Shown here piece after piece: positions 5,918-64,000 of a stretch of 64,000 bases of DNA (its first letter is position 1; the number at the start of each line of letters is the position of its first letter). Location: positions 3,534,001 to 3,598,000 of the forward strand of contig NW_027464602.1 in NCBI RefSeq assembly GCF_043290135.1. Direction: 5' to 3'. The stretch is from Rhipicephalus microplus (lineage: Eukaryota; Arthropoda; Arachnida; Ixodida; Ixodidae). The position numbers and the translations under genes were made by a program. A model generated the notes under the pieces. The model searched no databases, had not been told where the DNA came from, and saw nothing but the letters and a program-made list of their open reading frames with translations.

Positions 5918-5950
5918 TCCAACCTTTCGGTTAACAGCCGATCGCGCTAG

Positions 5951-42025: not shown

Positions 42026-42098
42026 AGTCCTGCTCCACTTTCACCACCATCAGAACATATCTTCAAAGCTATTAGTGCAAAGTAAAAAGCAACACACC

Positions 42099-45038: not shown

Positions 45039-45111
45039 ACCACCGGGTGGGCTCGAACCTCCAGCCTTTCGGTTAATGGCCGATCGCGCAAGCCATTTGC
45101 GCCACGGAAAC
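45039..45111 (-). tRNA. tRNA-like unit with ATT anticodon and C33 (copy 3)
   Basis: Loop CCATTAA as at 2940, with an extra D-loop change (GCCATTT on +). Confidence 0.4.
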
Positions 45112-46361
45112 AGACATGCTCCACTCTCACCACCATCAGAACATATCTTCAAACCTATCAGCCCCAAAAAAAAAGCACCGCACCACCACCGGGCGGGCTG
45201 GAACCTCCAACCTTTCGGTTAACAGCCAATCGCGTTAGCCAATTGCGCCACGGAGACAGTCCTGCTCCACTCTCACCACAATCAGAACATATCTTCAAAG
45301 CTATCAGCACAAAGAGAAAAAAGCGCCGCACCACCACCGGGTGGGCTCGAAACTCCAACCTTTCGGTTAACAGCCGATCGTGCTAGCCAATTGCGCCATG
45401 GAGACAGTCCTGCTCCAGTCTCACCACCATCAGAACATATCTTCAAAGCTATTAGTGCAAAGAAAAAAGCAGCACACCACTCCAGGAAGGACTCGAAACT
45501 CCAACCTTTCGGTTAACAGCCGATCGCGCTAGCCCATTGCGCCACGGGGACAGTCTTGCTTCACTCTCACCTCCATCAGTACATATCTTCAAAGCTATCA
45601 GCACAAAGAAAAAAAACGCCGCACCACCACCGGGTGGGCTCGAACCTCCAACCTTTCGGTTAACAGCCGATCGCGCTAGCCCATTGCGCCACGGGGACAG
45701 TCTTGCTCCACTCTCACCACCATCAGAACATATCTTCAAAGCTATCAGCACAAAGAGAAAAAAGCGCCGCACCACCACCGGGTGGGCTCGAAACTCCAAC
45801 CTTTCGGTTAACAGCCGATCGCGCTAGCCAATTGCGCCAGGGAGACAGTCCTGCTCCACTCTCACCACCACCAGAACATATCTTCAAAGCTATTACCACA
45901 AAGAAAAAAGCAACACACCACTCCTGGGAGGGCTCGAAACTCCAACCTTTCGGTTAACAGCCGATCGCGCTAGCCCATTGCGCCACGGAGACAGCCTTGC
46001 TCCACTCTCACCACCATTAGAACATATCTTTCAAGCTATCAGCCCAAAGAATAGAAAGCGCCGCGCCACCACCGGGTGGGCTCGAACCTCCAACCTTTCG
46101 GTTAACAGCCGATCGCGCTAGCCAATTGCGCCACGGAGACAGTCCTGCTCCATTTTCACCACCATCAGAACATATCTTCAAAGCTAATAGTGCAAAGAAA
46201 AAAGCGCCACACCATCACCGGGTGGGCTCGAACCTCCAACCTTTCGGTTAACAGCCGATCGCGCAAGCCAATTGCGCCACGGAGACAGTCCTGCTCCACT
46301 CTCACCACCGTCAAAACATTTATTCAGAGCTATCACCCCAAAGAAAAAAAAGCGCCGCACC

Positions 46362-46434
46362 ACCACCGGGAGGGCTCGAAACTCCAACCCTTCGGTTTAC
46401 AGCCGATCGCGCTAGCCCATTGCGCCACGAGGAC
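46362..46434 (-). tRNA. tRNA-like unit with GTA anticodon (copy 3)
   Basis: CTGTAAA loop, here joined to a class I-type trailer and T8 run, so the anticodon variant has been combined with another unit background. Confidence 0.42.
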
Positions 46435-48275
46435 AGTCTTGCTCCACTCTCACCACCATCAGAACATATCTTCAAAGCTATCAGCACAAAGAAAAAAAAA
46501 GCGCCGCACCACCACCGGGTGGGCTCGAACCTCCAACCTTTCGGTTAACAGCCGATTGCGCAAGCCAATTGCGCCACGGAGACAGTCCTGCTCCACTCTC
46601 ACCACCATCAGAACATATCTTCAAAGCTATCAGCCCAAAGAAAAAAAGCACCGCACCACCACCGGGTGGGCTCGAACTTCCAACCTTCCGGTTAACAGCC
46701 AATCGCGCTAGCCAATTGCGCGACGGAGACAGTCCTGCTTCACTCTCACCACCATCAGAACATATCTTCAAAGCTATCAGCACAAAGAAAAAAAAGCGCC
46801 ACACCATCATCGGGTGGGCTCGAACCTCCAACCTTTCGGTTAACAACCGATCGCGCAAGCCAATTGCACCACGGAGACAGTCCTGCTCCACACTCACCAC
46901 CGTCAAAACATTTCTTCAGAGCTATCACCCCAAAGAAAAAAAAGCGCCGCACCACCACCGGGTAGGCTCGAAACTCCAACCTTTCGGTTAACAGCCGATG
47001 GCGCTAGCCAATTGCGCCATGGAGACAGTCCTGCTCCACTCTCACCACCATCAGAACATATCTTCAAAGCCATCAGCCCAAAGAAAAAAAAGCACCGCAC
47101 CACCACCGGGTGGGCTCGAACCTCCAACCTTTCGGTTAACAGCCAATCGCGCTAGCCAATTGCGCCACGGAGACAGTCCTGCTCCACTCTCACTACCATC
47201 AGAACATATCTTCAAAGCTATTAGCGCAAAGAAAAAAGCGCCGCGCCACCACCGGGTGGGCTCGAACCTCCAACCTTTCGGTTAACAGCCAATCGCGCTA
47301 GCCAATTGCGCCACGGAGACAGTCCTGCTTCACTCTCACCACCATCAGAACATATCTTCAAAGCTATCAGCACAAAGAAAAAAAGCGCCACACCATCATC
47401 GGGTGGGCTCGAACCTCCAACCTTTCGGTTAACAGCCGATCGCGCAAGCCAATTGCGCCACGGAGACAGTCCTGCTCCACACTCACCACCATCAAAACAT
47501 TTCTTCAGAGCTATCACCCCAAAGAAAAAAAAAGCGCCGCACCACCACCGGGTGGGCTCGAACCTCCAACCTTTCAGTTAACAGCCGATCGCGCTAGCCG
47601 ATTGCGCCACGGAGACAGTCCTGGTCCACTCTCACCACCATCAGAACATATCTTCAAAGCTATCAGCGCAAAGAAAAAAAAGCGCCGCGCCACCACCGGG
47701 TGGGCTCGAAATTCCAACCTTTCGGTTAACAGCCGATCGCGCTAGCCCATTGTGCCACGGAGACAGTCTTGCTCTACTCTCACCACCATCAGAACATATC
47801 ATCAAAGCTATCAGCCCAAAAAAAAGCGCCGCACCACCACCGGGTGGGCTCGAACCTTCAACCTTTCGGTTAACAGCCGATCGCTCTAGCCAATTGCGCC
47901 ACGTAGGCTGTCGTGCTCCACTCTTACCACCATCAGAACATATCTTCAAAGCTATCAGCACAAAGAAAAAAGCAACACACCACTCCCGGGAGGGCTCGAA
48001 CCTCCAACTTTTCGGTTAACAGCCGATCGCGCTGGCCAATTGCTCCACGGAGACAGTCCTGCTGCACTCTCACCACCATTAGAACATATCTTTCAAGCTA
48101 TCAGCCCAAAGAAAAAAAAGCGCCGCACCACCACCGGGTGGGCTCGAACCTCCAACCTTTTGGTTAACGGCCGATCGCGCTAGCCAATTGCGCCACGGAG
48201 ACAATCGTGCTCCACGCTCACCAACATCAGAAAATATCTTCAAAGCTATCATCGCAAAGAAAAAAGCAACACACC

Positions 48276-48348
48276 CCACCCGGGAGGGCTCGAACCTCCA
48301 ACTTTTTGGTTAAAAGCCGATCGCGCTAGCCAATGGCGCCACGGGGAC
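48276..48348 (-). tRNA. tRNA-like unit with TTT anticodon, class II
   Basis: Loop CTTTTAA with T stem GGAGG/CCTCC. The anticodon stem is ATCGG/CCAAA with one mismatch, and the D stem carries a change (GGCGCC on +). Confidence 0.4.
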
Positions 48349-48422
48349 AGTCCTGCTCCACTCTCACCACCGTCAGAACATTTCTTCAGAGCTATCAGCC
48401 TAAAGAAAAAAAGCGCCGCACC

Positions 48423-48495
48423 ATCACCGGGTGGGCTCGAACCTACAACCTTTCGGTTAACAGCCGATCGCGCTAGCCAGTTGCGCCACAGAGAC
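48423..48495 (-). tRNA. Intact tRNA-like unit directly downstream of LINE A
   Basis: A full 73-nt GTT body whose nt 1 (position 48495) abuts the LINE A poly(A). Its first 15 nt are the 3'-side copy of the target duplication, so the insertion leaves a whole unit here. The acceptor is GTCTCTG and the D loop has CAACTGG. Confidence 0.55.
48481..48495. repeat. Target-site duplication, 3' side of LINE A
   Basis: TTGCGCCACAGAGAC on +, next to the T run of the element. It differs from the other copy (53326-53340) at one base, A versus G. Confidence 0.85.
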
Positions 48496-48603
48496 TTTTT
48501 TTTTTTTTCTTTATTGCCTTTTAATAACCACAAGCAAAGGAAATACATACAAAATATGTACACTTACTAAAACACCAGCTTCAACTTGGCCAGTGCACTT
48601 GGT
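48496..48603 (-). other. 3' UTR and poly(A) of LINE A
   Basis: 95 nt of 3' UTR after the ORF2 stop (48603 down to 48509), then an A13 tail (T run at 48496-48508). The tail joins tRNA nt 1 without extra bases. Confidence 0.85.
48510..48515 (-). promoter_or_regulatory. Polyadenylation signal AATAAA of LINE A
   Basis: AATAAA within GGCAATAAAG, almost touching the poly(A). LINE B has the same GGCAATAAA at the same place, so this end is conserved between the two families. Confidence 0.7.
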
Positions 48604-51600
48604 TTAAAAAGGCTTCACAGAAGCCAATTGGTCGAGCACAGGTAACCACTCGGGGGGTTCAGGCAGCGCTTTAAACACGTCTCGTGTATACAGCATACTC
48701 TCAACAAAATAGTCTCTCGCTGAACGTGCGTCTACACGCATATGTCGAACATCCATTCTTGTCCTCCACACACTATGCATGCAAAGCAACATTAACATGT
48801 CACTCGGCACTTCCCCTGCAGCTGCACACGGAAGAAAACGGATTCCAAAAGCGTTGATAGGTAGTTCTTTTTTTATAGTCCGTTGTAGTACGTCCCACAA
48901 GAACACAGCATCATGGCAGTCGAGAAAGATATGATTTATCGTTTCTGGTTTGCCGCAGATTAGACAGTTGACGGACCACGGTACAAAAAGCCCTTTACTT
49001 TTTAGCCATGGCAGTACAGGGAGAGTGCCGGTATGCACTTGAAAGAAGAATGTTTTGACAGAGGGTCTGACCGGCATTCTCTTAACACGTTTAAACACGT
49101 CACGCTCAGAACCTAGCCTGCACGAAGCTCGGTAGACGGGCACTGGCAGGAAGACATCAAGAAGGTCACGATACAGTTTCTTTTTAGTCACGTCGGACAA
49201 GTATTCGTACGAAAATCTTTCCTTGAGCAGGCGTGTAGCTGTAACTACTTCTCGCAAATAAGGACTGAGTGGTCCAGCTTCGAAGGAAAAAGATGACACG
49301 ACGAAATCAGATAAGGGGGTCTGCAGTCTTGCTTGGATCACAGTTCTCAAGAAATTGTCAGTTTGATCTCGAGCGAACATGAATCTGCTCACCAACTGCT
49401 TAAAAAACAAATGCAAAAGCCCCAGACCACCATATTTTACCCTATGAAATAAATTGCACCGGCTCGTGCGCTCCCACTGCGACCCCCATATAAAGGTCGC
49501 GAATACTCGGTGCATTTTCTGGACCGAAGTGCGGGTCATGGTTAACACTTGTAATACATAAAACACTTTTGCAATCAGAAATACATTGCACACGGACGCT
49601 TTTGCAAACATTGATAAATTGCGACCTCCCCACTTATCAGTACAATTTTTAATGCGTTGACGTTCCTCAGACCAATACTCCGTAGCATTGCGGTAGTGAT
49701 CCAAAGGCACACCGAGGTACTTTCCGGGCATGATTTTCCAATTCATGTTACAGTAAACTTCGGGTGTGCTTTGCCACTGGCCATGCCAAACGCCTAGACA
49801 TTTTGGCCAACTAATTGCGCTGCCCGTTGCTGCACAGAATTCCCTAGCTATTCGTACAACTTCTTGCACACTTTCTTTGTCACTGCAAAACACTGCGACG
49901 TCATCAGCATAGGCTAAAATTCTAATTCCACTGGTCAGAAACGTATACCCTCTTATACTTGGTGATGCAAGTATTCGTAAACAGAAGGGCTCTAAGTAAA
50001 GCGCGAAAAGGAGTGGCGACAAGGCACAACCTTGCTTCACGCTCGAGCGCACAGGAATTGAAGCACTTACTTCTTTGTTGATTACTAAATTAGCCCTGCA
50101 ATCGTGATACACCATTCTAACGCCTTCTGTAATGACAGTTCCTACATTCACATGTTCCAGCAATAAAAACAAAATTTCATGTACGACTTTATCGAACGCT
50201 TTGTGCAGGTCTAGCTGAATCATGGCCACGCGGTCATTATTTGCATCACAGCATTCTAGAATACTTCTGGTTACGTGTATATTTGTGAATATGGTTCTGC
50301 CCTTAATCCCACATGTCTGATGCGGGCCGACAAGGGATGTGACAACACTTTGGAGCCGTCTTGCTAGGACCTTCGTGTATATTTTATAGTCAGTGTTGCT
50401 CAAACTGATAGGTCGGTAGGATTCCACTGAAAGTAGCTTTGCGGGGTCATCAGTTTTGGGGATTAATACTACGTGTGCTGTCCTAAATGAATGAGGTGTT
50501 TGCTGCTTGTCGTAGCATTCTCTGATCACTCGGTGTAATGCCAGTGCCATTTCTGTCTTAAAAAATTTGTATATGGCAGCACCAAGCCCATCCGGCCCTG
50601 GTGACTTGCCGTTACCCAGGTTATCTATAGCTGATTCAATTTCTGCCACAGTGATTTCTACTTCCAGTAGCTCCCGCTCAGAGTCTTCCAATCTCGGCAT
50701 AAGGGTCAGAAAGTCCTCTTTGAATCGTTCGGGGTCATTGATTGTATGGCTAAGGAGTTGCGTATAAAACTCGACAAAGGCGTGCTTTATCTGTTCGCGG
50801 TCCCGGGTAATGTAATTGCGGTATCGAATTTCATTTATCTCTTTGTTTGCTGCATGTTTCTTTTCTTCACTGAGCACCCGCTTAGTGGGCGTTTCACCCA
50901 TCCACAGCCGTTCAGTGCGAGCCCTTATCATTGCTCCGCGGTACTTTTCGTCGTCGATGAATTCGAGCTTTGCTTTCGCCTCCTTTATTTCTTTCTTAAA
51001 TTTTCCCGGCACTTCATTTTCTACGCTTAACATGTAGTCTAGTTCGCTTTGTAACTGCCTCTCTTGTTGCCTTTCCCGATTACGTAATACACAGGCTCTT
51101 TCAATCGCTATCATCTTTATATCACACTTCATTTGCTCCCACACAGCTATGAAGTTATTGGTCTCCAAACGAAGAGCATTTGAAAGACATTCTTTGGTTT
51201 TTGTGACAAATATTTCATCTTGCAGCAGCTTTTCATTAAATTTCCATAGAAACCAATTAAACTTCGCAGCCTTACGTTTTTCGCCAATGTTGACCTTGAC
51301 CAGACAATGATCACTAAAACTAAGATGTTGAATTTGATAAGATGAGCATAGTGGCACCAACTTTGCCGACAAATATATTCTGTCTAACCTCGCGTGCGAA
51401 TGACCTTGAAAGTGCGTATATCCTACTTCACCCTCTCGCGTCATTACATAACCGACATCTTCCAGCCCTGTCTCGTTCACTATTTTATTCAACAGCTCAG
51501 CGCTTCTATCGCGCACATTGAAGCTCGTTGTCTTATCCTCAGCTCTACAGACACAATTGAAGTCCCCTAGAACCACAACATTTCTTTCCGTTTTCAAGAA

Positions 51601-52005
51601 TCCTTCAATCGCTCTGAAAAAAAAAACCCGTTCGCGCGATCTATTCGGTGCATAAACACACACAACGCGCCAAGGCATTCCAGAAACACTGAAGTCGCAC
51701 ACAACCAGCCTACCGCTATCGCAGGTAGACACATTTTCAACAACCGCGATACTACTACGTATGAAAACGACACAGCCTCCTGACCGCCCAACAGCATGAC
51801 AAACGCAGACATTGTACCTAGAGCGAAAAACTTGAACCATTTGCTCCGTTTGTTCTTCACTTTCCATTTTAGTTTCTTGTACAGCCAGGAGGTCTATGTC
51901 GTTTTCTAACAAAATGCGACTAATCTGGCATTGTCTCCTGCGCGAACACAGGCCTCTTGAGTTCAACGTCGCGATGCAAATACCAGTTTTAAAGTTAGTC
52001 GCCAT
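48604..52005 (-). CDS. LINE A ORF2: APE endonuclease + reverse transcriptase
   Basis: 1133 residues from ATG to stop. Residues ~8-240 form an AP-like endonuclease: ATLN with N15, QET with E44, GDFN at 147-150, LDR at 207-209 and SDH at 231-233. After a linker the RT follows, with GKSPGPDG, YRPISLSN, QLDLHKAFD, KQGCALSPLLF and the catalytic YADD at 699-702. The C-terminal region has a CX2CX7HX4C knuckle at 1014-1030. In this family ORF2 nicks the target and primes reverse transcription from the nick; the insertion position implies it cuts at the 5' edge of the tRNA-like body. The start matches the LINE B homologue at the MxxxxxxxxIATLN level. No frameshift or stop is seen. Confidence 0.93.
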   Translation of the reverse strand: MATNFKTGICIATLNSRGLCSRRRQCQISRILLENDIDLLAVQETKMESEEQTEQMVQVFRSRYNVCVCHAVGRSGGCVVFIRSSIAVVENVSTCDSGRLVVCDFSVSGMPWRVVCVYAPNRSRERVFFFRAIEGFLKTERNVVVLGDFNCVCRAEDKTTSFNVRDRSAELLNKIVNETGLEDVGYVMTREGEVGYTHFQGHSHARLDRIYLSAKLVPLCSSYQIQHLSFSDHCLVKVNIGEKRKAAKFNWFLWKFNEKLLQDEIFVTKTKECLSNALRLETNNFIAVWEQMKCDIKMIAIERACVLRNRERQQERQLQSELDYMLSVENEVPGKFKKEIKEAKAKLEFIDDEKYRGAMIRARTERLWMGETPTKRVLSEEKKHAANKEINEIRYRNYITRDREQIKHAFVEFYTQLLSHTINDPERFKEDFLTLMPRLEDSERELLEVEITVAEIESAIDNLGNGKSPGPDGLGAAIYKFFKTEMALALHRVIRECYDKQQTPHSFRTAHVVLIPKTDDPAKLLSVESYRPISLSNTDYKIYTKVLARRLQSVVTSLVGPHQTCGIKGRTIFTNIHVTRSILECCDANNDRVAMIQLDLHKAFDKVVHEILFLLLEHVNVGTVITEGVRMVYHDCRANLVINKEVSASIPVRSSVKQGCALSPLLFALYLEPFCLRILASPSIRGYTFLTSGIRILAYADDVAVFCSDKESVQEVVRIAREFCAATGSAISWPKCLGVWHGQWQSTPEVYCNMNWKIMPGKYLGVPLDHYRNATEYWSEERQRIKNCTDKWGGRNLSMFAKASVCNVFLIAKVFYVLQVLTMTRTSVQKMHRVFATFIWGSQWERTSRCNLFHRVKYGGLGLLHLFFKQLVSRFMFARDQTDNFLRTVIQARLQTPLSDFVVSSFSFEAGPLSPYLREVVTATRLLKERFSYEYLSDVTKKKLYRDLLDVFLPVPVYRASCRLGSERDVFKRVKRMPVRPSVKTFFFQVHTGTLPVLPWLKSKGLFVPWSVNCLICGKPETINHIFLDCHDAVFLWDVLQRTIKKELPINAFGIRFLPCAAAGEVPSDMLMLLCMHSVWRTRMDVRHMRVDARSARDYFVESMLYTRDVFKALPEPPEWLPVLDQLASVKPF

Positions 52006-52095
52006 TTCTTGAAGGTTGTTTCGTCAGGTGTCATACTCACGTCGCAACAGTGGTTGCGTGTGCTCAGCGTAGAAGGCCTCGGAACGTCTCCTCCG
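52006..52095 (-). other. ORF1-ORF2 intergenic gap of LINE A
   Basis: 90 nt between the ORF1 stop and the ORF2 ATG. ORF2 is presumably translated by reinitiation or internal entry; no specific signal is recognisable. Confidence 0.6.
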
Positions 52096-53283
52096 CTACG
52101 GCGGGGCCGACGTTTGAGTGCCCCTACGGTCAGGAGACAGGTTTGGTCGTGGTTTAAAGGTAGGCCGACGACCAGTCGCCGTCTTTGTTGGAGGTTCATT
52201 GATGGCCGACGTGTCAACATTTCCGGTACGGTCAGGTGTTTCACGAGCTCGCTTAAAAGCGATAGCACCGGCCTTGGTCATCTCGGCGTCCGTTGCTTCC
52301 GGGCCGCCCTCTCGCGCAGCTGAAGATGACTTGCTCGCTGCTGTAGCGTCGTTCTCTACTGCTGCCGTGTCTAAATTCGTTCCTGGCGCACCAGAGTGCT
52401 TGTCGCCTTTATTGGTAGATTCCAGTGCGGCCCCAGAAGACTGTTCAGGGGGCGTGGCAGGGCCTTCCGTATAACCGTCTTCCCTGCTCGCTTCTTCGGC
52501 ATCCACGGCATCCATCAGGTGTTCAGACACTTCGTCTGTTTGGCCTGGGCCCGCAATGCTGGCGTACGACCTCACACAGTGGGCGTCATCGTGGCCATAG
52601 CGACGACAGACCCCACAGCGCGGCACGCGGCAATCCCGTCGAATGTGTCCGATAGCCCGGCATCGGAGGCATAGCGGTGCTCTGCCAGGAATTACGACGA
52701 GCGCCATATCCTCCGCAACTCGCAGTTGGTGTGGCAGGTCGTCCACGGACACGCCCGCGTGTAGCCTCAGCGTGACCGACCGCGTGGTTGAACCTTTATC
52801 ATTGCAACCCTGCACCTTCCATTTATCTCTGCTTATCTCGGTCACTTTTCCGTAGGGCGTTAAGGCGACTCGCACAGCCTCGTCCGGCACGCCATGAAGA
52901 AGCCAGTACAACTTCAGCCGCACACCTCGATCACGGGGGTCAACCACCATACAGCGATGGTCCTTTAGATCAAAAGACTCCGCCGCCAGCATCTTCTTTT
53001 TACCCTCATCATCCTTGAACGTCACTGCCCATACATGATTCATTTGGTATGCCCCTAGGGCAACCACTTCCGGCAGCAGCGAAAGACGAGCAAGGCTGTC
53101 TCGGACATGCTCCACTCGATATGGCCTGGCTTTCAAGTTTCCGTGCAAAAAAACCGTGTGCAAAACGGAATCACCTGAAGGCAGCTGAGGCAGAACAACC
53201 TGGAAATCTTCGCCTGGCTTTTCGGTACACCTGATACCGCGGCCCACACGGGCCGCTGAAACCGCCCCTACGCGGGAGCACAT
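52096..53283 (-). CDS. LINE A ORF1: nucleic-acid-binding protein with two zinc knuckles
   Basis: 395 residues, taken from the ATG at 53281-53283; an in-frame GTG three codons upstream is less likely because LINE B also starts with a short MxSxxGA segment. Residues ~28-120 hold a conserved block (VFLHG, LGAYQMNHVWAVTF), ~120-190 an RRM-like segment (YWLLHGVPDEAV, YGKVTEI), and 205-218 and 223-236 are two CX2CX4HX4C knuckles (CLRCRAIGH, CGVCRRYGH). The last ~150 residues are low-complexity and basic at the end. It is expected to coat the element RNA and deliver it with ORF2. A position-by-position homologue lies in LINE B at 59745-60959. Confidence 0.9.
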   Translation of the reverse strand: MCSRVGAVSAARVGRGIRCTEKPGEDFQVVLPQLPSGDSVLHTVFLHGNLKARPYRVEHVRDSLARLSLLPEVVALGAYQMNHVWAVTFKDDEGKKKMLAAESFDLKDHRCMVVDPRDRGVRLKLYWLLHGVPDEAVRVALTPYGKVTEISRDKWKVQGCNDKGSTTRSVTLRLHAGVSVDDLPHQLRVAEDMALVVIPGRAPLCLRCRAIGHIRRDCRVPRCGVCRRYGHDDAHCVRSYASIAGPGQTDEVSEHLMDAVDAEEASREDGYTEGPATPPEQSSGAALESTNKGDKHSGAPGTNLDTAAVENDATAASKSSSAAREGGPEATDAEMTKAGAIAFKRARETPDRTGNVDTSAINEPPTKTATGRRPTFKPRPNLSPDRRGTQTSAPP

Positions 53284-53325
53284 GATAAACACGTCCGTTC
53301 ACTGTCGTGGCCGGAAGTGGAATGA
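53284..53325 (-). other. 5' UTR of LINE A
   Basis: Only 42 nt, starting TCATTCCACTTCCGG. LINE B also has a 42-nt leader starting TCATTCTGCTTCCGG. Matching ends in both copies argue that each is full length. Confidence 0.75.
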
Positions 53326-53340
53326 TTGCGCCACGGAGAC
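53326..53340. repeat. Target-site duplication, 5' side of LINE A
   Basis: TTGCGCCACGGAGAC on +, which is tRNA nt 1-15 on the minus strand. It remains as an isolated 15-nt 5' tRNA fragment followed by spacer. Confidence 0.85.
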
Positions 53341-53415
53341 AGTCTTGCTCCCTTCCCACCACCATCAGAGCATATCTTCAAAGCTATAACCCCATAGAAA
53401 AAAAAGCGCCGCACC

Positions 53416-53500
53416 ACCACTGGGTGGGCTCGAACCTCCGACCTTTTGGTTAACAGCCGATCGCGCTAGCCAATCGGTGTAATGCAAAAGCCACGGAGAC
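53416..53500 (-). pseudogene. tRNA-like unit with 12-nt net insertion in the D arm
   Basis: The body is 85 nt instead of 73. In tRNA sense, GTGGC is followed by TTTTGCATTACACCG and then ATTGG, where normal units have GTGGC-GCA-ATTGG. The A box is destroyed. The change lies within a few bases of the LINE cleavage point (after nt 15), in the first unit after LINE A. Confidence 0.7.
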
Positions 53501-53867
53501 AGTCCTGCTCCACTCTCACCACCATCATAACATATCTTCAAAGCTATCAGCACAAAGAAAAAAAAGCGCCGCACCCCCACCGGGTGGGCTCGAAACTCCA
53601 ACCTTTCGGTTAACAGCCGATCGCGCTAGCCAATTGCGCCATGGAGACAGTCCTGCTCCACTCTCACCACCATCAGAACATAATTCAAAGCTATTACCAC
53701 AAAGAAAAAAGCAACACACCACTCCTGGGAGGGCTCGACACTCCAACGTTTCGGTTAACAGCCGATCGCGCTAGCCCATTGCGCCACGGAGATAGCCTTG
53801 CTCCACTCTCAACACCATCAGAACATATCTTCAAAGCTATTAGCGCAAAGAAAAAAAGCGCCGCACC

Positions 53868-53940
53868 ACCACCGGGTGGGCTCGAACCTCCAACCTTTCG
53901 GTTAAAAGCCGATCGCGCTAGCCAATCGCGCCACGGAGAC
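53868..53940 (-). tRNA. tRNA-like unit with TTT anticodon, class I
   Basis: Loop CTTTTAA on stem ATCGG/CCGAA, acceptor GTCTCCG, B box GGTTCGAGCCC. The best-formed Lys-type variant in the window; the D stem has one change (CGCG instead of TGCG on +). Confidence 0.45.
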
Positions 53941-54013
53941 AGTCCTGCTCCACTTTCACCACCATCAGAACATATCTTCAAAGCTATTAGTGCAAAGAAA
54001 AAAGCAGCACACC

Positions 54014-54086
54014 GTTCCCGGGAGGGCTCAAAACTCCAACCCTTCGGTTTACAGCCGATCGCGCTAGCCCATTGCGCCACGAGGAC
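54014..54086 (-). tRNA. tRNA-like unit with GTA anticodon (copy 4)
   Basis: Loop CTGTAAA in a class II unit; the T loop is altered (GCTCAAAACTCC on +), removing the B-box match. Confidence 0.38.
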
Positions 54087-56070
54087 AGTCTTGCTCCACT
54101 CTCACCACCATCAGAACATATCTTCAAAGCTATCAGGGCAAAGAAAAAAGCAACACACCACTCCAGGGTGGGCTCGAACCTCCAACCTTTCGGTTAACAG
54201 CCGATCACGCTAGCCAATTGCGCCACGGAGACAGTCCTGCTCCACTCTCACCACCGTCAGAACATTTCTTCAGAGCTATCAGCCCAAAGAAAAAAAAGCG
54301 CTGCACCACCACCGGTTGGGCTCGAACCTCCAACCTTTCGGTTAGCAGCCGATCGCGCTAGCCAATTGCCCCACAGAGACAGTCGTGCTCCACTCTCACC
54401 ATCGTCAAAACATCTCTTCAGAGCTATCACCCCAAAGAAAAAAAAGCGCCGCACCACCACCGGTTGGGCTCGAACCTCCAACCTTTCGGTTAACAGCCGA
54501 TTGCACTAGCCAATTGCGCCACGAAGACTGTCCTGCTCCACTCTCACCACCATCAGAACATATCTTCAAAGCTAATACCGCAAAGAAAAAAGCAACACAC
54601 CACTCCTGGGAGGGCTCGAGACTCCAACCTTTCGGTTAACAGCCGATCGCGCTAGCCCATTGTGCCACGGAGGCAGTCTTTCTCCACTCTCACCATCATC
54701 AGAACATATCTTCAAAGCTATCAGCACAAAGAAAAAAAAGCGCTGCACCACCACCGTGTGGGCTCGAACCTCCAACCTTTCGGTTAACAGCCAATCGCGC
54801 TAGCCCATTGCGCCACGAAGACAGTCTTGCTCCACTCTCACCACCATCAGAACATATCTTCAAAGCTATCAGCGCAAAGGAAAAAGCAACACACCACTCC
54901 CGGGAGGGCTCGAAACTCCAACCTTTCGGTCAACAGCCGATCGCGCTAGCCCATTGCGCCACGGAGACAGTCTTGCTCCCTTCTCACCACCATCAGAACA
55001 TAACTTCAAAGCTATCAGCCCAAAAAAAAGCACCGCACCACCACCGGGTGGGCTCGAACTTCCAACCTTTCGGTTAACAGCCGATCGCGCTAGCCAATTG
55101 CGCCACGGAGACAGTCGTGCTCCACTCTCACCACCATCAGAACTTATCTTCAAAGCTATCAGCGCAAAGAAAAAAGCAAAACACCACTCCCGGGAGGGCT
55201 CGAACCTCCAACTTTTCGGTTAACAGCCGATCGCGCTGGCCAATTGCGCCACGGAAAAAGTCCTGCTCAACTCTCACCACAATTAGAACATATCTTCAAA
55301 GCTATCAGCCCAAAGAAAAAAAAAAGCGCCGCACCACCACCGGGTGGGCTCGAACCTCCAACTTCTCGGTTAACAGCCGATCGCGCTAGCCAATTGCGCC
55401 ACGGGGACCGTCCTGCTCCACTCTCACCACCGTCAGACCATTTTTTTAGAGCTATCACTCCAAAGAAAAAAAAGCGCCGCACCACCACCGGGTGTGCTCG
55501 AACCTCCAACCTTTCGGTTGACAGCCGATCGCGCTAGCCAATTGCCCCACGGAGACAGTCGTGCTCCACTCTCACCACCGTCAGAACATCTCTTCAGAGC
55601 TATCACCCCAAAGAAAAAAAAGCACCGCACCACCACCGGTTGGGCTAGAACCTCAAACCTTTCGGTTAACAGCCGATCGCGCTAGCCAATTGCGCCACGA
55701 AGACTGTCCTGCTTCACTCTCACCACCATCAGAACATATCTTCAAAGTTATTACCGCAAAGAAAAAAGCAACACACCACTCCCGGGAGGGCTCAAAACTC
55801 CAACCTTTCGGTTAACAGCCGATCGCGCTAGCCCATTGCGCCACGGAGACAGTCTTGCTCCACTCTCACCACCATCAGAACATATCTCCAAAGCTATCAT
55901 CGCAAAGAAAAAAGCAACACACCACTCCCGGGAGGGCTCGAAACTCCAACCTTTCGGTCAACAGCCGATCGCGCTAGCCCATTGCGCCACGGAGACAGTC
56001 TTGCTCATCTCTCACCACCATCAGAACATATCATCAAAGCTATCGGCCCAAAGAAAAAAAGCACCGCACC

Positions 56071-56143
56071 ACCACCGGGTGGGCTCGAACCTCCAACCTT
56101 TCGGTCAACAGGTAATCGCGCTAGCCAATTGCGCCACGGAGAC
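56071..56143 (-). tRNA. Complete-length tRNA-like unit directly downstream of LINE B
   Basis: 73-nt body whose nt 1 (56143) abuts the LINE B poly(A). Loop CTGTTGA (GTT) but a damaged anticodon stem, from the GGTCAACAGGTAATCG variant on +. The same variant precedes the empty site at 62914. Confidence 0.5.
56129..56143. repeat. Target-site duplication, 3' side of LINE B
   Basis: TTGCGCCACGGAGAC on +, directly before the T17 run. Identical to 61002-61016; one more A upstream may extend it to 16 nt. Confidence 0.9.
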
Positions 56144-59100
56144 TTTTTTTTTTTTTTTTTATTTATTGCCTGGCATGGACATTGTACAGGGCAATCATTG
56201 CACACACATATATTACAATACAAAGAAAAAGAAAAAAAAAAACAAGCATTGCCATCAGTCCCATTTGTACTGATGTTGTCCTCTAAAATATACTTAAGGT
56301 TTGCCAGGGGTTCAAACCTTGACAACCATTCTGGCTCGATATCCTCTATTTTGCTACACTCAATGAATGCAGACATGCTTTGCCTGAAATAAATTACTGC
56401 TGGTTTTGCGTCCGGGTCGAAATGGTATCCGGCCATTCGTGCACGCCATATACAGTGGAGACCGGTCAACATCACTACATCGAATGGGACCCCATCATCA
56501 TTTGTTACTGCGAGGTACCTTATTCCGTGTGGGTCTAGTGGAAAATCCTTCTTTATTGTCCTCTGTAATATGTCCCAAAAATGTACCCCTTCCCAACAAT
56601 GCAAAAAAACATGGTCTATTGTTTCTGGTTTCTTACATATCAAGCAGTGTGACCCCCATAGTGTAAAAAAACCCCGTTCCTCTGTGAAAGTCTTTACTGA
56701 TAGTGTTCCTGTGTGTAACTTGAAGAAAAAAGTTTTCACCCCTGTAGGTACCTGCATGTTTCTCACCCGCTTCAGTACGTTTTGTCCCGGTCTTCCACTG
56801 TATATGGCCCTGTACAATGGTACTGGCAAAACCATAGCACATACATCTCTGTACAATTCTTTTCTTCTAACACTTGCTAGATAATCTATCGAAAAGCGTA
56901 CAGATAAAAAACGTACACTGTCTACCACTTCCTTGAGATACCCACGCAACGTCACGGGCCGGCTATCCGTAGTAACAACAAAATCTGGTAAGGCACTGCC
57001 TAACCTGAGCTGGCATACCGTACGTAAAAACGGATCCCTGACGTCACGGAAAAACAAAAATCTATTTACTACTTGTCTCACAAATAGGTGCGCCAAACCA
57101 AGACCTCCGTCCTTCACGCGCCTGAACAAGTTGGTCCGTCTGCACCTTTCCCATTTCGAGCCCCATATAAAAACTGCGAACACTCTGTGCAGCCTTTGCA
57201 CGTTGATCCTTGAACAATGTAACACCTGCATCACATACCACAGTTTAGCGATAAAAAACATGTTGCACACAGTAGCCCTAGCGAAAACAGACAGGTTCAT
57301 GCCTTTCCACCTGTCTGCTTTTTCCTTCGTCTCTTTTGTTTGACGCGACCAATACTCCTCGCTGCCGTTATAACATTCCAGGGGAACACCGAGGTACCTT
57401 GTCGGTGTTTCCGTCCAGTGCACATTCGCAAAAAGGTCCGGCTTTGAAGGCCACCTTCCGTGCCAAAGCCCAAGAGATTTCGCCCAGTTTACGCGGCTTC
57501 CTGTGACGCTACAAAAATGTTTCACAACACTTATCGTTTCCTCTACACTTTCTTTGTTCGTACAACACACCGCAATGTCGTCTGCATATGCCAGCAGCTT
57601 AACTTCCACTGCCGCCAAGCTGAAGCCACGAATTTTTTCATTTTCATTTATCGCTAAGCACATCGCTTCGATGTAAATACAAAACAAAAGTGGACTGAGG
57701 GGGCAGCCCTGGCGCACAGAACGCATTACGTGAATGGGGGCCCCCAAAGACTTGTTAACAATTAAACGTGTTGTGCAGTTCTGGTACGCCAAGGCCACTC
57801 CCTCCTTGATGATGGAACCGACATTAATATGATCTAAGATGACAAACAAAATCTCATGCGCAACACAATCAAAAGCTTTCTCCAGGTCTATCTGGAGCAC
57901 AGCAACGCCAAGTGAATCTTCGTCACAACACTCCAGCACACACCGCATCTTGTGAATGTTTGAGCTAATGGTTCTGCCTTTGATTCCACAAGTTTGGTGC
58001 TCTCCAACAATTTCTTTAATGACACCTTGAAGTCGCGCTGCCAGAACCTTCATAAAAATCTTGTAGTCGACATTGGTCAGCGATATGGGCCTATACGATG
58101 TCACCAGTTTAAGTTTTTCCCCTTCGTCCGTTTTAGGAATTAATATCGTATGCGCTTTGCTGAAGGAGGGCGGCAGAGTTTTCCGTTCGTACGCCTCATT
58201 GAACAGCTCAGCTAACCCCGGGGACAGTTCTATTCTAAACGTCTTATACCATGCTGCGGTTAGGCCATCGGGTCCCGGTGACTTTCCGGGGTTCAGATGA
58301 CCAATCGCGCGTTCCACTTCACCTTCCGTTATTCTGCCTTCTAAAAGCTTTTTTGTGTCGTCACTAAGCCGCGGCAAGCGCTTGAGAAACTCTTCTTTGA
58401 AACCATGTACATTCGCTTTTCGAATTGCAAAAAGTGACTGATAATACGCAACAAAGGCCCGTTCGATGCTTTCATTGTCGCTCGCGAGAGTCCCGTTGCA
58501 ATAGACCTTATCGATGTGGTTTCGGCGTCCTTGCGCTTTTTCGAGACCAAGCGCCCTTTTTGTGGGCGTCTCACCCGCGGCAAGATCATTTGCGCGCGCG
58601 CGAACCCAGGCGCCTCGATAACGCTCTCTGTCATGCAGTTCTAATTTTTCCTTGACACTGCGCACCTCGTCTTTGCAAGTCCCAGGCTCCCGACTTTCTA
58701 GGGCTATCAGCTGCTGCAGTGTTTTCTTAAGACTTCTTTCTTTTATTTGCGCTTCGAATTTTAGCGTGCTCGATCTGTCAAGCGCTTTCATTTTCACCTT
58801 CTGCTTTAAACACTCCCATTTCTCTGCTACTGTTTCCGTTTTTTCCATAAGCACTTCATTAATGGTCTCGTGCACTGCTTCTAAAAATGGTTCATCTTTT
58901 AGTAACAATGCGTTCAGTTTCCATAAATCCCAGTTGAAAACCTTACGCTGTTTCTTCATGCCTATGCGACACACAACCAAACAGTGATCTGAAAACGACA
59001 CTGGCTCAACCGAAAAATCGTGACACATAGGCAATACATCTAGGGATAGGTATATGCGGTCTAAACGTGCATGGCTATTGCCATGAAATCGCGTGTAGAT

Positions 59101-59715
59101 CACTTCGCGATTTGCTGCCACACATTCATACACGTCTTCCAAGTCATTTTCGGTTATTAATTTGCCTAGCACGTCACTGCTTTTGTCACGAACGCCAGTG
59201 CTATTGACTCTATCGCGAGCCCTTAAAACACAGTTAAAATCACCTAACAAAACCACCCTCTTATCACACTTTGTCCACTGAAACAGGTTAGAAAAAAACT
59301 GAGCACGCTCTTCTACACTATTCGGTGCGTATACGCATATAACTCTGAATTCAGTGGCACCATAAACAAAGTCACAATAAACAATTCTGCCCGACTGGCA
59401 TGAAAAAACACTTTGCACAAGAAGGCTTTGCAATTTTTTTACAAAAAGAACACAACCCGCGGACGTTCCTATCGAGTGGCTTACGACCGCGTAATATCGG
59501 TCAGTGAAACAGCGCACCATGCTCCCGGTCTCCTCCTCTCCGTCTACCTTAGTTTCCTGGACGGCTAGGACGTCTATGTCTTGGTCTGTGAGCAACCGAT
59601 AGAGCTGACTTTGCCTACGCCTAGCCGCCAACCCTCTGACGTTAAGCGTAGCTATACTGAATGGCGGAGTTAATTCCATAGTGACTTGTTCGCTAAAGGA
59701 GTAGGCCCGGAGCAT
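56144..59715 (-). CDS. LINE B ORF2: APE endonuclease + reverse transcriptase, stop lost
   Basis: Frame opens at ATG 59713-59715; an ATG at 59677-59679 (residue 13) aligns better with LINE A and may be the true start. Endonuclease: ATLN with N25, QET with E54, GDFN at 158-161, LDR at 218-220, SDH at 242-244. RT: GKSPGPDG, YRPISLTN, QIDLEKAFD, RQGCPLSPLLF and YADD at 710-713; the C-terminal knuckle is CLICKKPETIDH. Past the position where LINE A stops, the frame stays open through the 3' UTR and the poly(A) (as Lys codons) and ends only at 56005 in the array. A one-base change in the T11 run (56232-56242 on +) in either direction would bring a stop inside the element, so the missing stop is probably a homopolymer slip or a sequencing error. 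The catalytic parts are intact. Confidence 0.9.
56162..56167 (-). promoter_or_regulatory. Polyadenylation signal AATAAA of LINE B
   Basis: AATAAA within GGCAATAAAT, one base before the A17 tail; same placement as in LINE A. Confidence 0.7.
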
Positions 59716-59744
59716 GGCGCTTACCCTTCACGACCAGCCCTCGG

Positions 59745-60959
59745 CTAGCCGCCTCCAGGACCATCCTGCTTCCCAGCGCTGTTTTCTTTTGCCTTGTCCT
59801 CCAGTCTCCGGTCGGTAGGGACTTTCGGCTTAGGTTTGAGACTACGCCGCCTCCCTTGCGGCGCCTTCGCAGGCGGCTCCTGGCTGCTGGTGGACGACGC
59901 CCCGTCCTGCTCTACCGAGTCGTCGAGTGGACGCTTTAGCGTGGCGCTGGTCACGCACATCTCGTCGTCGCTGTCCGCCGCCGTCTCTCCCTGACCCTCC
60001 GTTGTATCAGCTGTCCCCACTGGAACCACGTCCGTCTCGACCCGCTCAGGCTCGGCCGCTGACGGGGCGCTGGCCGGTGTAGTCGAAAGCTGGCGAGTCT
60101 CCGGAAACTTGGGTGTGTCTGCCTGCGCCGCCCCTCCAGTAGTCACAGGGACCACTGGGCTTCCGACCCCTTTGGCGGCGTCCTCTGCCTCGGCCGCGTC
60201 CATGACGTGATCAGCCATCGCCTCGTTCTTCGCTGGCCCCATTGCACTGGCGTACGTTCGAACGCAATCCGCCTCGACGTGTCCGAAGCGTTTGCACCGC
60301 GAGCAACGGGGAACCTTGCACTCTCGGCGGACGTGCCCTTTGCCTTGGCAGCGCAAGCATTGCATCGGCCGACCAGGCACAACCAGCAAGGCCAGCTCTC
60401 CATCGATCCTGATCTGGTGCGGAAGGTCTTCGACCCTGACGCCGCTTTTCAGCTTCAGGAGAGCTGTTCTCGTGGTCGAACACTTGTCGGCCATGCCCGG
60501 GACACGCCACCGCTCACGGCTCACCTCCACGACCTTGCCGAAAGCCGACAGCGCCGTCCGTACTTCTTCGTCGCTCACCCCGTGAAGCAGCCAGTGAATT
60601 CGTAGCCGCACCTGCTGGTCCTGTGGGTCGACGACGACGCAGCGCCGCCCCTTCACCTGCAGCTCCTTCAAGGCGAGCAGGCGTTTTGTGGGAGCGGCAT
60701 CATTGAATGTCACCGCCCACAAGTGGTTAACCTGGTATGCACCGAGGCTTACCACATCCGGCAGCAGGCCCGTTGGCGTCAATGCGTCCCTGAAATCTTC
60801 GACCTTGTATGGCCTCGCTCGTACATCACCGTGTAAAAACACGGTGTTGATAACAAGTCGTCCTTTTGGCATTTGCGGCAAAATAAACTGGTATTCGCTA
60901 TCTCCGTTCCTGTTTCCGCGGCTAAGATTGGCCGCTGTCGCCGCTCCGCTGGAGCTCAT
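59745..60959 (-). CDS. LINE B ORF1: nucleic-acid-binding protein with two zinc knuckles
   Basis: 404 residues from ATG 60957-60959 to TAG 59745. Same order as LINE A ORF1: conserved block with VFLHG and LGAYQVNHLWAVTF (~40-85), RRM-like segment with HWLLHGVSDEEV and FGKVVEV (~115-190), knuckles CLRCQGKGH (201-214) and CSRCKRFGH (219-232), then an acidic, Ser/Thr-rich stretch and a basic C-terminus (RRRSLKPKPK). It lies 29 nt upstream of the first ORF2 ATG. Expected to bind the element RNA in the retrotransposition particle. Confidence 0.9.
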   Translation of the reverse strand: MSSSGAATAANLSRGNRNGDSEYQFILPQMPKGRLVINTVFLHGDVRARPYKVEDFRDALTPTGLLPDVVSLGAYQVNHLWAVTFNDAAPTKRLLALKELQVKGRRCVVVDPQDQQVRLRIHWLLHGVSDEEVRTALSAFGKVVEVSRERWRVPGMADKCSTTRTALLKLKSGVRVEDLPHQIRIDGELALLVVPGRPMQCLRCQGKGHVRRECKVPRCSRCKRFGHVEADCVRTYASAMGPAKNEAMADHVMDAAEAEDAAKGVGSPVVPVTTGGAAQADTPKFPETRQLSTTPASAPSAAEPERVETDVVPVGTADTTEGQGETAADSDDEMCVTSATLKRPLDDSVEQDGASSTSSQEPPAKAPQGRRRSLKPKPKVPTDRRLEDKAKENSAGKQDGPGGG

Positions 60960-61001
60960 GATCCTGCGATCCGTTCAGCACGACTGCCGGAAGCAGAATG
61001 A
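60960..61001 (-). other. 5' UTR of LINE B
   Basis: 42 nt, starting TCATTCTGCTTCCGG; matches the LINE A leader in length and start. Confidence 0.75.
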
Positions 61002-61016
61002 TTGCGCCACGGAGAC
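61002..61016. repeat. Target-site duplication, 5' side of LINE B
   Basis: TTGCGCCACGGAGAC, followed in register by the spacer AGTCCTGCTCCACTC. It is what remains of tRNA nt 1-15 upstream of the element. Confidence 0.9.
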
Positions 61017-62913
61017 AGTCCTGCTCCACTCTCACCACCATCACAACATATCTTCAAAGCTATCAGCACAAAGAAAAAAAAGCGGCACACCATCACCGCG
61101 TGGGCTCGAACCTCCAACCTTTCGGTTAACCGCTGATCGCGCTAGCCAAATGCGCCACGGAGACAGTCGTGCTCCACTCTCACCACCATCAGAACATATC
61201 TTCAAAGCTATCAGCCCAAAGAAAAAAAAGCGCCGCACCACCTCCGGGTGGGCTCGAACCTCCAACCTTTCGGTTAACAGCCGATCGCGCTAGCCTATTG
61301 CACCACGGAGACAGTCCTGCTCCACTCTCACCACCGTCAGAACATTTCTTCAGAGATATCACCCCAAAAAAAAAGAGCCGCAGCACCACCGGGTGGGCTC
61401 GAACCTCCAACCTTTCGGTTAACAGCCGATCGCGCTAGCCAATTGCGCCACGAAGACAGTCCTGCTGCACTCTCACCACCATCAGAACATATCTTCAAAC
61501 TATCAGCGCAAAAAAAAAGCGCCGCACCACCACCGGGTGGGCTCGAAACTCCAACCTTTTGGTTAACAGCCGATCGCGCTAGCCAATTGCGCCACAGAGA
61601 CAGTCTTGCTCCACTCTCAACACCATCAGAACATATCTTCAAAGCTACAAGCGCAAAGAAAAAAAAGCGCCGCACCACCACCGGGTGGGCTCGAACCTCC
61701 AACCTTTCGGTTAACAGCCGATCGCGCTAGCCAATTGCGCCACGGGGACAGTCTTGCTCCACCCTCACCACCATCAGAACATATCTTCAAAGCTATCAGC
61801 CCAAAGAAAAAAAGCACCGCACCACCACCGGGTGGGCTCGAACTTCCAACCTTTCGGTTAACATCCATTCGCGCTAGCCAATTGTGCCACGGAGACAGTC
61901 CTGCTTCACTCTCACCACCATCAGAACATATCTTCAAAGCTATCAGCACAAAGAAAGAAAAGCGCCACACCATCATCGAGTGGGCTCGAACCTCCAACCT
62001 TTCGGTTAACAACCGATCGCGCAAGCCAATTGCACCACGGAGACAGTCCTGCTCCACACTCACCACTATCAGAACATATCTTCAAAGCTATCAGCGCAAA
62101 GAAAAAAAAGCGCCGCACCACCACCGGGTGGGCTCGAACCTCCAACCTTTCGGTTAACAGCCGATTGCGCAAGCCAATTGCGCCACGGAGACAGCCTTGC
62201 TCCAATCTCAACACCATCAGAACATATCTTCAAAGCTATTAGCGCAAAGAAAAAAAGCGCCGCACCACCACCGGGTGGGCTCGAACATCCAACCTTTCGG
62301 TTAACAGCCGATCGCGCTAGCCAATTGCGCCACGGAGACAGTCCTGCTCCACTCTCACCACCATCACAACATATCTTCAAACCTATCAGCACAAAGAAAA
62401 AAAAACGCCGCACCACCACCGGGTGGGCTCGAACCTCCAACCTTTCGGTTAACAGCCGATCGCGCAAGCCAATTGCGCCATGGAGACAGTCCTGCTCCAC
62501 TCTCACCACCATCAGAACATATCTTCAAAGCTATCGGCCCAAAGAAAAAAAGCACCGCACCACCACCGGGTGGGCTCGAACCTCCAACCTTTCGGTCAAC
62601 AGGTAATCGCGCTAGCCAATTGCGCCACGGAGACAGTCTTGCTCCACTCTCACCACCATCACTACATATCTTCAAAGCTATCAGCACAAAGAAAAAAAAC
62701 GCCGCACCACCACCGGGTGGGCTCGAACCTCCAACCTTTCGGTTAACAGCCGATCGCGCAAGCCAATTGCGCCACGGAGACAGTCCTGCTCCACTCTCAC
62801 CACCATCAGAACATATCTTCAAAGCTATCGGCCCAAAGAAAAAAAGCACCGCACCACCACCGGGTGGGCTCGAACCTCCCACCTTTCGGTCAACAGGTAA
62901 TCGCGCTAGCCAA

Positions 62914-62928
62914 TTGCGCCACGGAGAC
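62914..62928. other. Empty-site paralogue of the LINE B insertion
   Basis: TTGCGCCACGGAGAC occurs once here. The left neighbour carries the rare TATCGGCCC and GGTCAACAGGTAATCG variants, like the left flank of LINE B. The right neighbour carries CATCACAACATATC and GCGGCACACC, like its right flank. Together they show the pre-insertion sequence. Confidence 0.85.
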
Positions 62929-64000
62929 AGTCCTGCTCCACTGTCACCACCATCACAACATATCTTCAAAGCTATCAGCACAAAGAAAAAAAAGCGGCAC
63001 ACCATCACCGCGTGGGCTCGAACCTCCAACCTTTCGGTTAACCGCTGATCGCGCTAGCCAAATGCGCCACGGAGACAGTCGTGCTCCACTCTCACCACCA
63101 TCAGAACATATCTTCAAAGCTATCAGCCCAAAGAAAAAAAAGCGCCGCACCACCTCCGGGTGGGCTCGAACATCCAACCTTTCGGTTAACAGCCGATCGC
63201 GCTAGCCTATTGCACCACGGAGACAGTCCTGCTCCACTCTCACCACCGTCAGAACATTTCTTCAGAGATATCACCTCAAAAAAAAGAGCCGCAGCACCAC
63301 CGGGTGGGCTCGAACCTCCAACCTTTCGGTTAACAGCCGATCGCGCTAGCCAATTGCGCCACGAAGACAGTCCTGCTGCACTCTCACCACCATCAGAACA
63401 TATCTTCAAACTATCAGCGCAAAAAAAAAGCGCCGCACCACCACCGGGTGGGCTCGAAACTCCAACCTTTTGGTTAACAGCCGATCGCGCTAGCCAATTG
63501 CGCCACAGAGACAGTCGTGCTCCACTCTCACCACCATCAGAACATATCTTCAAAGCTATCAGCCCAAAGAAAAAAAAGCGCCGCACCACCTCCGGGTGGG
63601 CTCGAACCTCCAACCTTTCGGTTAACAGCCGATCGCGCTAGCCAAATGCGCCACGGAGACAGTCGTGCTGCACTCTCACCACCATCACAACATATCTTCA
63701 AAGCTATCAGCACAAAGAAAAAAAAGCGGCACACCATCACCGCGTGGGCTCGAACCTCCAACCTTTCGGTTAACCCCTGATCGCGCTAGCCAAATGCGCC
63801 ACGGAGACAGTCGTGCTCCACTCTCACCACCATCAGAACATATCTTCAAAGCTATCAGCCCAAAGAAAAAAAAGCGCCGCACCACCTCCGGGTGGGCTCG
63901 AACCTCCAACCTTTCGGTTAACAGCCGATCGCGCTAGCCTATTGCACCACGGAGACAGTCCTGCTCCACTCTCACCACCGTCAGAACATTTCTTCAGAGA

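Follow-up and report, generated by a model that had tools for sequence, protein, structure and literature searches.

An L1-group LINE lineage of Rhipicephalus microplus that very probably targets the 5' end of tRNA genes of many isotypes

Two full-length long interspersed nuclear elements (LINEs), here called LINE A and LINE B, lie in a tandem array of units that resemble the transfer RNA (tRNA) gene for Asn, in a stretch of 64,000 nucleotides (nt) of Rhipicephalus microplus DNA (contig NW_027464602.1, positions 3,534,001 to 3,598,000; 'the window' below). Based on the junctions of these elements and of related copies throughout the genome, we consider it very probable that they belong to one LINE lineage of the L1 group, with an apurinic/apyrimidinic endonuclease (APE), that inserts into tRNA genes of many isotypes at their 5' end. 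The poly(A) tail of most copies examined is joined at, or a few bases from, nt 1 of the mature tRNA, usually preceding a G, and the target-site duplication spans tRNA nt 1 to the D loop. The complete tRNA coding sequence is therefore restored downstream of the element.

The initial annotation of the window had described two LINEs on the same strand with their poly(A) on tRNA nt 1 and with 5' ends that start after a 15-nt duplication, and both elements were found accordingly. At the 3' joint of LINE A, AATAAAG(A)13 is followed directly by GTCTCTGTGGCGCAAC, and at its 5' joint GTCTCCGTGGCGCAAT directly precedes CATTCCACT. The two copies of the duplication agree at 14 of 15 positions, with T at tRNA position 6 at the 3' joint and C at the 5' joint. 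Position 16 at the 3' joint is a C, while 347 of 349 array units have T there. A rearranged site was considered as the origin of the mismatched duplication, and the unit types do not settle the point. The corresponding joints of LINE B are AATAAAT(A)17 running into GTCTCCGTGGCGCAAT at the 3' end and GTCTCCGTGGCGCAAT running into CATTCTGCT at the 5' end, with duplication copies identical over 16 of 16 nt. Once joined, the flanks of each element align over their full length, joint included, to the array elsewhere, at best with 91.6% for LINE A (24 gaps in 1411 columns) and 94.5% for LINE B (4 gaps in 1396 columns).

The second open reading frame (ORF2) of LINE B lacks the family stop, giving a frame of 1236 amino acids, as against 1143 in relative P0063, which is 99% identical. 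The read-through tail gave no match as a protein query, and therefore no junctions were obtained from database proteins. Inspection by eye of the C-termini of 110 aligned relatives revealed no read-through into a tRNA except in the LINE B of the window itself.

The whole genome of 3.26 gigabases (Gb; 1202 contigs) was searched, and the 3' joints of 94 copies were examined, namely 41 of LINE A, 33 of LINE B and 20 of further families. At all 94 joints, tRNA or tRNA-like sequence is found on the same strand, abutting the poly(A) or with the joint inside it. A tRNA was called by ARAGORN or Rfam at 68 of these joints (34/41 for LINE A, with ARAGORN only; 16 of the first 20 and 7 of the other 13 LINE B copies; 11/20 for the further families), and the remaining 26 were assigned by eye. 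The start called by ARAGORN is at most 3 nt from the end of the poly(A) in 34 of 41 LINE A copies, in 14 of the first 20 and 5 of the other 13 LINE B copies, and in 10 of the 20 others. A B-box-like motif is present in the expected stretch at 73 of the 81 joints scored for it (36/41 LINE A, 18/20 LINE B, 19/20 others). Insertions at unrelated sequence, which the initial annotation had named as a refuting outcome if found for most other copies, did not turn up among the copies examined when junctions were gathered genome-wide.

In all 41 scored copies of LINE A, which include the window copy and have 100% ORF2 identity after rounding, the poly(A) runs into the 5' end of a tRNA gene that has the orientation of the element. 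Relative to the poly(A) end, the 34 called tRNA genes start at offset 0 (24 copies), +1 (4), -1 (3), -2 (2) or +3 (1); the seven copies with no ARAGORN call are Trp-like, Asn-like or Leu-like by eye. The targets called are Asn, Trp, Glu, Ser-GCT, Val-AAC, Leu-CAG, Leu-AAG, an intron-bearing Leu-CAA, Met (the initiator by eye), Lys-TTT and Arg-TCG, with odd anticodon calls of Tyr, Arg-TCT and Pro, the last at L006, which appears Gln-like by eye. Many of these targets sit in tandem arrays of like tRNAs, as seen from the neighbouring tRNAs of L001 to L030. For LINE B, 37 copies were scored with the window frame as query, and 33 of the 36 outside the window were examined at the 3' joint. All 33 joints are at or within tRNA or tRNA-like sequence, the targets being Asn, Ser-CGA, Ala, Thr-CGT, Thr-AGT, Arg-ACG, Trp-like (Cys according to ARAGORN), Leu-like, Met-like and others. 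Among the first 20, ARAGORN made 14 calls, with offsets of 0 (12) and -1 (2), and Rfam (E up to 1) has matches for 16, of which three are under the gathering score; L069, L076, L077 and L078 have neither. Seven of the other 13 have an ARAGORN call, within 3 nt in five cases.

The initial annotation had proposed that the lineage recognizes the 5' part of tRNA-Asn-like genes and that the shared site is not due to chance. The site specificity has held up, and the restriction to Asn has not. Both window copies and many other copies of LINE A and LINE B are indeed in tRNA-Asn arrays, as recognition of tRNA-Asn-like sequence only would predict. Nevertheless, the same families are found at the starts of Trp, Ser, Leu, Val, Lys, Arg, Met, Ala and Thr genes, and most non-Asn copies have a matching duplication where the 5' end was examined. 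We thus rejected Asn-only targeting, now very improbable, on account of the non-Asn joints.

A Penelope-like element in the window served as a control, with 70 scored relatives, of which 20 were picked by hand and inspected at their 3' flanks only. None of the 20 3' ends is at a tRNA start. Two copies (L119 and L126) are in the tRNA-Asn array, a third (L116) has a tRNA-Ser call some distance downstream, and the rest are in varied sequence. The tRNA-start pattern is therefore not general to the retroelements of this genome. These results also bear on coincidence, in which an unspecific LINE with a short nick preference would have hit the same bond twice in an abundant array. The array is large and two matches alone could coincide; the four-base context ACAG occurs only twice per unit, counting both strands. 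Against this, the same joint recurs in unrelated tRNA sequences with almost no similarity upstream, and 2 of the 20 control flanks lie in the Asn array with none at a tRNA start. In view of the isotype spread and of the control, we rejected this explanation and give it very little credence.

The further families came from a search with the distant relative P0087, which gave 41 scored copies at 41-43% identity, of which 20 (L042 to L061) were picked by hand. By their 3' ends they fall into four types, with 6, 4, 9 and 1 copies. Judged by eye, every one of the 20 joints lies at tRNA or tRNA-like sequence, with tRNA calls by ARAGORN in 10, by Rfam in 10 and by either in 11. The nine-copy type, represented by L104, has tRNA duplications at two 5' joints.

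The 5' end was found in 57 of 61 LINE A and LINE B copies, which yielded 43 distinct 5' joints (25 for LINE A and 18 for LINE B); LINE A copies L015 and L026 have no recognized 5' end and were left out of these counts. The duplications are on average ~16 base pairs (bp) long, in a range of about 13-20 bp, with L006 counted in spite of flanks from different genes. The signal was analysed in 26 events that a simple string rule had classed as non-Asn; on inspection by eye, four of them (L019, L023, L070 and L072) look Asn-like. Each upstream position as far as -10 carries at most 0.1 bit, position +1 is G in 85% of the events, positions +3 and +5 carry 0.3 bit, and positions +8 to +18 up to 0.6 bit. 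A G is the first base after the poly(A) in 40 of 41 LINE A, 16 of 20 LINE B and 17 of 20 other copies. At the initiator-Met gene (L032 and L033, which share one 5' joint), the joint is before G2 and not A1. The G at the joint is a preference, not a rule.

Several points weigh against these conclusions. The sample consists of top-scoring, mostly full-length copies from one genome, and the 20 copies from the P0087 search, like the 20 Penelope-like ones, were chosen by hand from lists. The ranking of the LINE B copies leans to Asn targets, owing to a translated tRNA-Asn tail on the query, and the 41 LINE A copies reduce to 25 distinct 5' joints and hence do not represent 41 events. The assignment of 26 of the 94 joints was by eye alone, with isotype names given by comparison to familiar tRNA sequences. 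Rfam left 10 of the other-family copies without a tRNA call, and nine of these 10 belong to the two deep families described below. Some LINE B joints are off nt 1, about 7 nt upstream in L136 and L138 and within the gene in L075 and L130. Some copies have a C or T at the joint, and the cutting rule bars A as the first base after the poly(A), so that the G preference holds relative to C and T only. Lastly, a greedy rule that tolerates two mismatches gives an exact duplication in only 26 of 57 cases; over-extension by the rule accounts for part of this shortfall, and changes to the flanks through array exchange for another part.

LINE A and LINE B share 48% identity over 1132 residues of ORF2 and 45% over their first open reading frame (ORF1), and at shared residues 118 of 149 four-fold sites differ, which amounts to saturation. 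Trees that comprise database relatives only place the two in separate clades with 100% support each, of 24 and 26 rows in one tree and 23 and 25 in another; the fork that unites only these two clades is weak (support 80/6). Based on the ORF2 identity and the saturated four-fold sites, they are truly distinct, old and separate families. The first and last bases of the elements are alike (CATTC...CTTCCGGC; GGCAATAAA), and together with the common site and strand this similarity might suggest that the window copies stem from one ancestral insertion, one of them having been replaced via gene conversion. Such an origin is extremely improbable and was rejected because of the divergence; the clades are separate and well supported, and each family is also inserted at other genes. 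The initial annotation, which had described the proteins as homologous but well diverged, had named an origin of LINE B from LINE A by gene conversion as a refuting outcome, and such a conversion is at odds with the divergence and the separate clades.

The assignment to the L1 group in the initial annotation was sound. Pfam domains Exo_endo_phos, RVT_1 and zf-RVT were found in both ORF2 proteins, whose best relatives of solved structure are LINE-1 ORF2 proteins (1e-150), followed by R2 proteins (1e-54). By these features, both elements are members of the L1 group of non-LTR (long terminal repeat) retrotransposons. The top-scoring relative with a name, among the best 120 of 425 matches listed, is P0026 of Ixodes scapularis (54%), and scans of viral contigs and of a genome-contig collection revealed no relatives. 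Members of the Tx1 clade, which includes Tx1, Keno, Mutsu and Dewa, have CCHC zinc knuckles in ORF1 instead of an L1-type ORF1. Each ORF1 of the window LINEs likewise harbours two C-X2-C-X4-H-X4-C motifs, with Pfam zf-CCHC under the cut-off (E 0.056 and 0.0013), and Pfam lists no L1 ORF1 domain in either. Site-specific insertion into multicopy sequence is a further feature in common with that clade.

The reverse transcriptase tree also informs on the age of the targeting habit. L104, of the nine-copy type, is nearly identical to P0024 and groups with LINE A. In contrast, L102 and L103, of the six- and four-copy types, branch outside a 62-row group that contains both LINE A and LINE B (Shimodaira-Hasegawa-like approximate likelihood ratio support 94, node not starred). 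If these two deep families are placed correctly, the habit is by parsimony probably older than the split of LINE A and LINE B, as the initial annotation had supposed. The copies of the two deep families with no Rfam tRNA call (L042 to L045, L047 to L049, L051 and L058) are inserted at tRNA-like heads, which are perhaps those of tRNA-derived short interspersed nuclear elements. L042 and L051, which belong to different families, have the same kind of target.

Target-primed reverse transcription is an established mechanism in which the nick sets a tight 3' joint and the 5' joint is looser. The tight 3' and looser 5' joints of these LINEs thus fit this mechanism, with a first nick before nt 1 and a second in the D loop. 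We propose that the endonuclease would nick the template strand of the tRNA gene immediately 5' of nt 1 and that the freed 3' end would prime reverse transcription on the LINE poly(A). The second strand would be cut ~16 nt further in, in the D loop, in or near the A box. Restoration of tRNA nt 1 to ~16 would keep both the A and B boxes whole, a new leader being the sole change. Recognition would be of the tRNA gene as a class, through direct contact with the A-box region or through a protein attached to it, and G would be favoured locally at the joint.

Two variants of this recognition step were considered. There is an even chance that the LINE protein reads the degenerate A box directly in DNA. 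The +1 G and the A-box region hold most of the signal, no 5S or U6 match is listed in the Rfam scans of 40 of the 94 joints, and the targets include poorly pairing array units and degenerate tRNA-like heads, for which transcription would not be required. Nevertheless, the A box is short and degenerate, and the first nick is outside it, with a jitter of several bases. Recruitment by the RNA polymerase III (Pol III) initiation machinery, as with Dictyostelium TRE5, is a serious possibility, if slightly short of an even chance. The insertion position tracks the gene and not the upstream sequence, B-box-like motifs are present at most scored joints, and in the available text on TRE5-A its ORF1 protein interacts with TFIIIB (PMC5911963). 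Against such recruitment, TRE5 goes upstream while the joint here is at the mature 5' end, some targets are pseudogene-like, and no other Pol III genes were seen among the targets. The degenerate targets would favour direct reading of the A box, and the position relative to the gene would fit both variants.

The window consists mostly of one tandem array of ~148-bp units on the minus strand, each with a tRNA-Asn-like sequence (Table 1). A profile search of the window detected 351-352 units, all on that strand, and ARAGORN made 227 tRNA calls. Three gaps of more than 25 bases have no array unit, at 14281-17069 (the Penelope-like element), 48498-53354 (LINE A) and 56147-60979 (LINE B). The B-box sequence and a T run are present in the units. 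Nevertheless, the tRNA part is not better kept than the spacer (mean major-allele frequency 0.951 versus 0.947), and stem positions 4-70, 28-44 and 52-64 pair in only 15%, 0% and 15% of the units. For both these reasons, the array resembles a satellite of tRNA origin more than a set of clearly functional genes. In the unit adjoining the 5' flank of LINE A, at 53471-53490, an odd stretch of ~14 bases within the D-arm region is possibly a scar from another mobile element. The Penelope-like element has inverted terminal copies, and its near-identical relatives are often in tandem or inverted pairs, judging by their coordinates.

Table 1. Coordinates of the array, the two LINEs and the Penelope-like element in the window
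Feature	Position	Strand	Remarks
Tandem array of ~148-bp tRNA-Asn-like units (target)	1..48495	-	Penelope-like element inside
Penelope-like element	14261..17029	+	Reverse transcriptase and weak GIY-YIG; other site and strand than the LINEs; ends read by eye
LINE A, 3' copy of target duplication	48481..48495	-	tRNA nt 1-15, start of tRNA-Asn-like gene 48422-48495
LINE A, full length	48496..53324	-	Short 5' untranslated region, ORF1, ORF2, short 3' untranslated region, AATAAAG, (A)13
LINE A ORF2	48604..52005	-	1133 amino acids; APE endonuclease, reverse transcriptase, zf-RVT zinc finger; catalytic positions compared
LINE A ORF1	52096..53292	-	Up to 398 amino acids; GTG opening, first ATG a few codons later; two CCHC knuckles
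LINE A, 5' copy of target duplication	53325..53340	-	15 or 16 nt; position 6 unlike 3' copy
Array stretch separating LINE A from LINE B	53341..56127	-	
LINE B ORF2 frame	56005..59715	-	Endonuclease, reverse transcriptase, zf-RVT; continues beyond the usual family stop, via the poly(A), into the tRNA unit
LINE B, 3' copy of target duplication	56128..56143	-	tRNA nt 1-16
LINE B, full length	56144..61000	-	Ends in AATAAAT + (A)17
LINE B ORF1	59745..60959	-	404 amino acids; two CCHC knuckles; 45% identity to LINE A ORF1
LINE B, 5' copy of target duplication	61001..61016	-	tRNA nt 1-16
Array stretch past LINE B	61017..64000	-	

Besides Asn, the genome harbours tandem arrays of several tRNA types (Trp, Gln/Glu, Ser, Val, Leu-CAG and Leu-AAG), with examples of various types at L002, L006, L007, L009, L018, L027 and L028. 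LINE A forms nine groups of copies with a common 5' joint, and in eight of them at least one member differs in its 3' unit; two such groups with differing 3' tRNA units are L011/L012/L013/L020 and L027/L030/L031/L039. The left and right flanks of L006, L014 and L025 do not match. These observations suggest that array exchange happens around inserted LINEs, and the arrays seem to amplify and reshuffle the LINEs that they carry.

LINEs with an APE endonuclease and fixed sites in multicopy RNA genes or repeats are known (PMC3706591, PMC4640811), and in the available excerpts of these papers the Tx1-clade elements resemble LINE A and LINE B in both respects. Keno inserts into U2 genes, Mutsu into 5S genes and Dewa into the tRNA-Leu spacer (PMC3706591), that is, one target each as described there, unlike the start of many tRNA genes. 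The spacer specificity of Dewa is not found here, the joints being at the gene start and in many isotypes. According to the portions available, elements related to NeSL also insert into tRNA genes, with NeSL-1_TV at tRNA-Pro, LIN15_SM at tRNA-Arg and LIN25_SM at tRNA-Glu; in contrast with LINE A and LINE B, they use one tRNA type each, and their NeSL-clade kin are treated with elements that have a restriction-like endonuclease (PMC4640811).

Closer parallels are the L1-clade elements of dictyostelids, TRE5, TRE3, NLTR-A of D. purpureum and NLTR-B of P. pallidum, which in the sections available target tRNA genes in general (PMC5911963, PMC5006619). LINE A and LINE B share with them the use of tRNA genes of many isotypes. 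Nevertheless, the dictyostelid elements keep to a characteristic distance from the mature coding sequence and insert outside it, 40-54 bp upstream for TRE5, 2-6 upstream for NLTR-A, 39-64 upstream for NLTR-B and 40-150 downstream for TRE3, by the same partial sources (PMC5911963, PMC5006619). The offset is 0 in 24 of 34 called LINE A and 12 of 14 called LINE B copies, a few LINE B copies being up to 7 nt upstream, and the duplication is inside the gene. The tick elements thus differ by a joint at nt 1 in most copies, an intragenic duplication and a 3.26-Gb genome with large tRNA arrays.

Other classes of elements provide more distant comparisons. Dada elements also occupy fixed internal positions of tRNA and small-RNA genes, including fish tRNA-Asn; unlike LINE A and LINE B, they are DNA transposons with 6-7-bp duplications and, in the text available, mainly one gene type per family (PMC3706591, PMC8869645). 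Ty3, which inserts 1-4 bp upstream of the tRNA transcription start (PMC5911963), and related LTR elements similarly target the start of Pol III genes; in the excerpts at hand, they differ from LINE A and LINE B in being integrase-based and in inserting upstream of the mature tRNA. In a literature search that was not exhaustive, we found no report of an animal LINE directed at nt 1 of tRNA genes as a class, nor of tick LINEs within tRNA arrays.

The position of the joint further leads us to a tentative, rather unlikely idea, namely that tRNA genes as a class are the landing site of an old LINE lineage and the downstream tRNA is part of its life cycle, with large tandem tRNA arrays perhaps as a shared refuge. 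Given the fusion of poly(A) to tRNA nt 1, RNase P would cut a LINE read-through transcript exactly at the joint. The cut would release a normal tRNA and give the LINE RNA a 3' poly(A) that is encoded in the genome, as RNase P does for MALAT1. If this is true, the large tandem tRNA arrays of this genome could serve these LINEs as a common refuge, maintained by them or for them.

LINEs that use tRNA genes as a class were previously described from social amoebae, while the tRNA-specific LINEs of animals were tied to one tRNA type each, in the sources as available to us. An animal lineage that inserts where the mature tRNA begins, in tRNA genes of about a dozen kinds, and restores its target would represent a clean natural case of a retrotransposon that recognizes a class of genes and not a single sequence. 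How a LINE endonuclease locates tRNA genes, whether RNase P defines the end of the element RNA and how tRNA arrays and their parasites evolve jointly all become amenable to testing, and the jitter of the joint and the preference for G offer concrete experimental handles.

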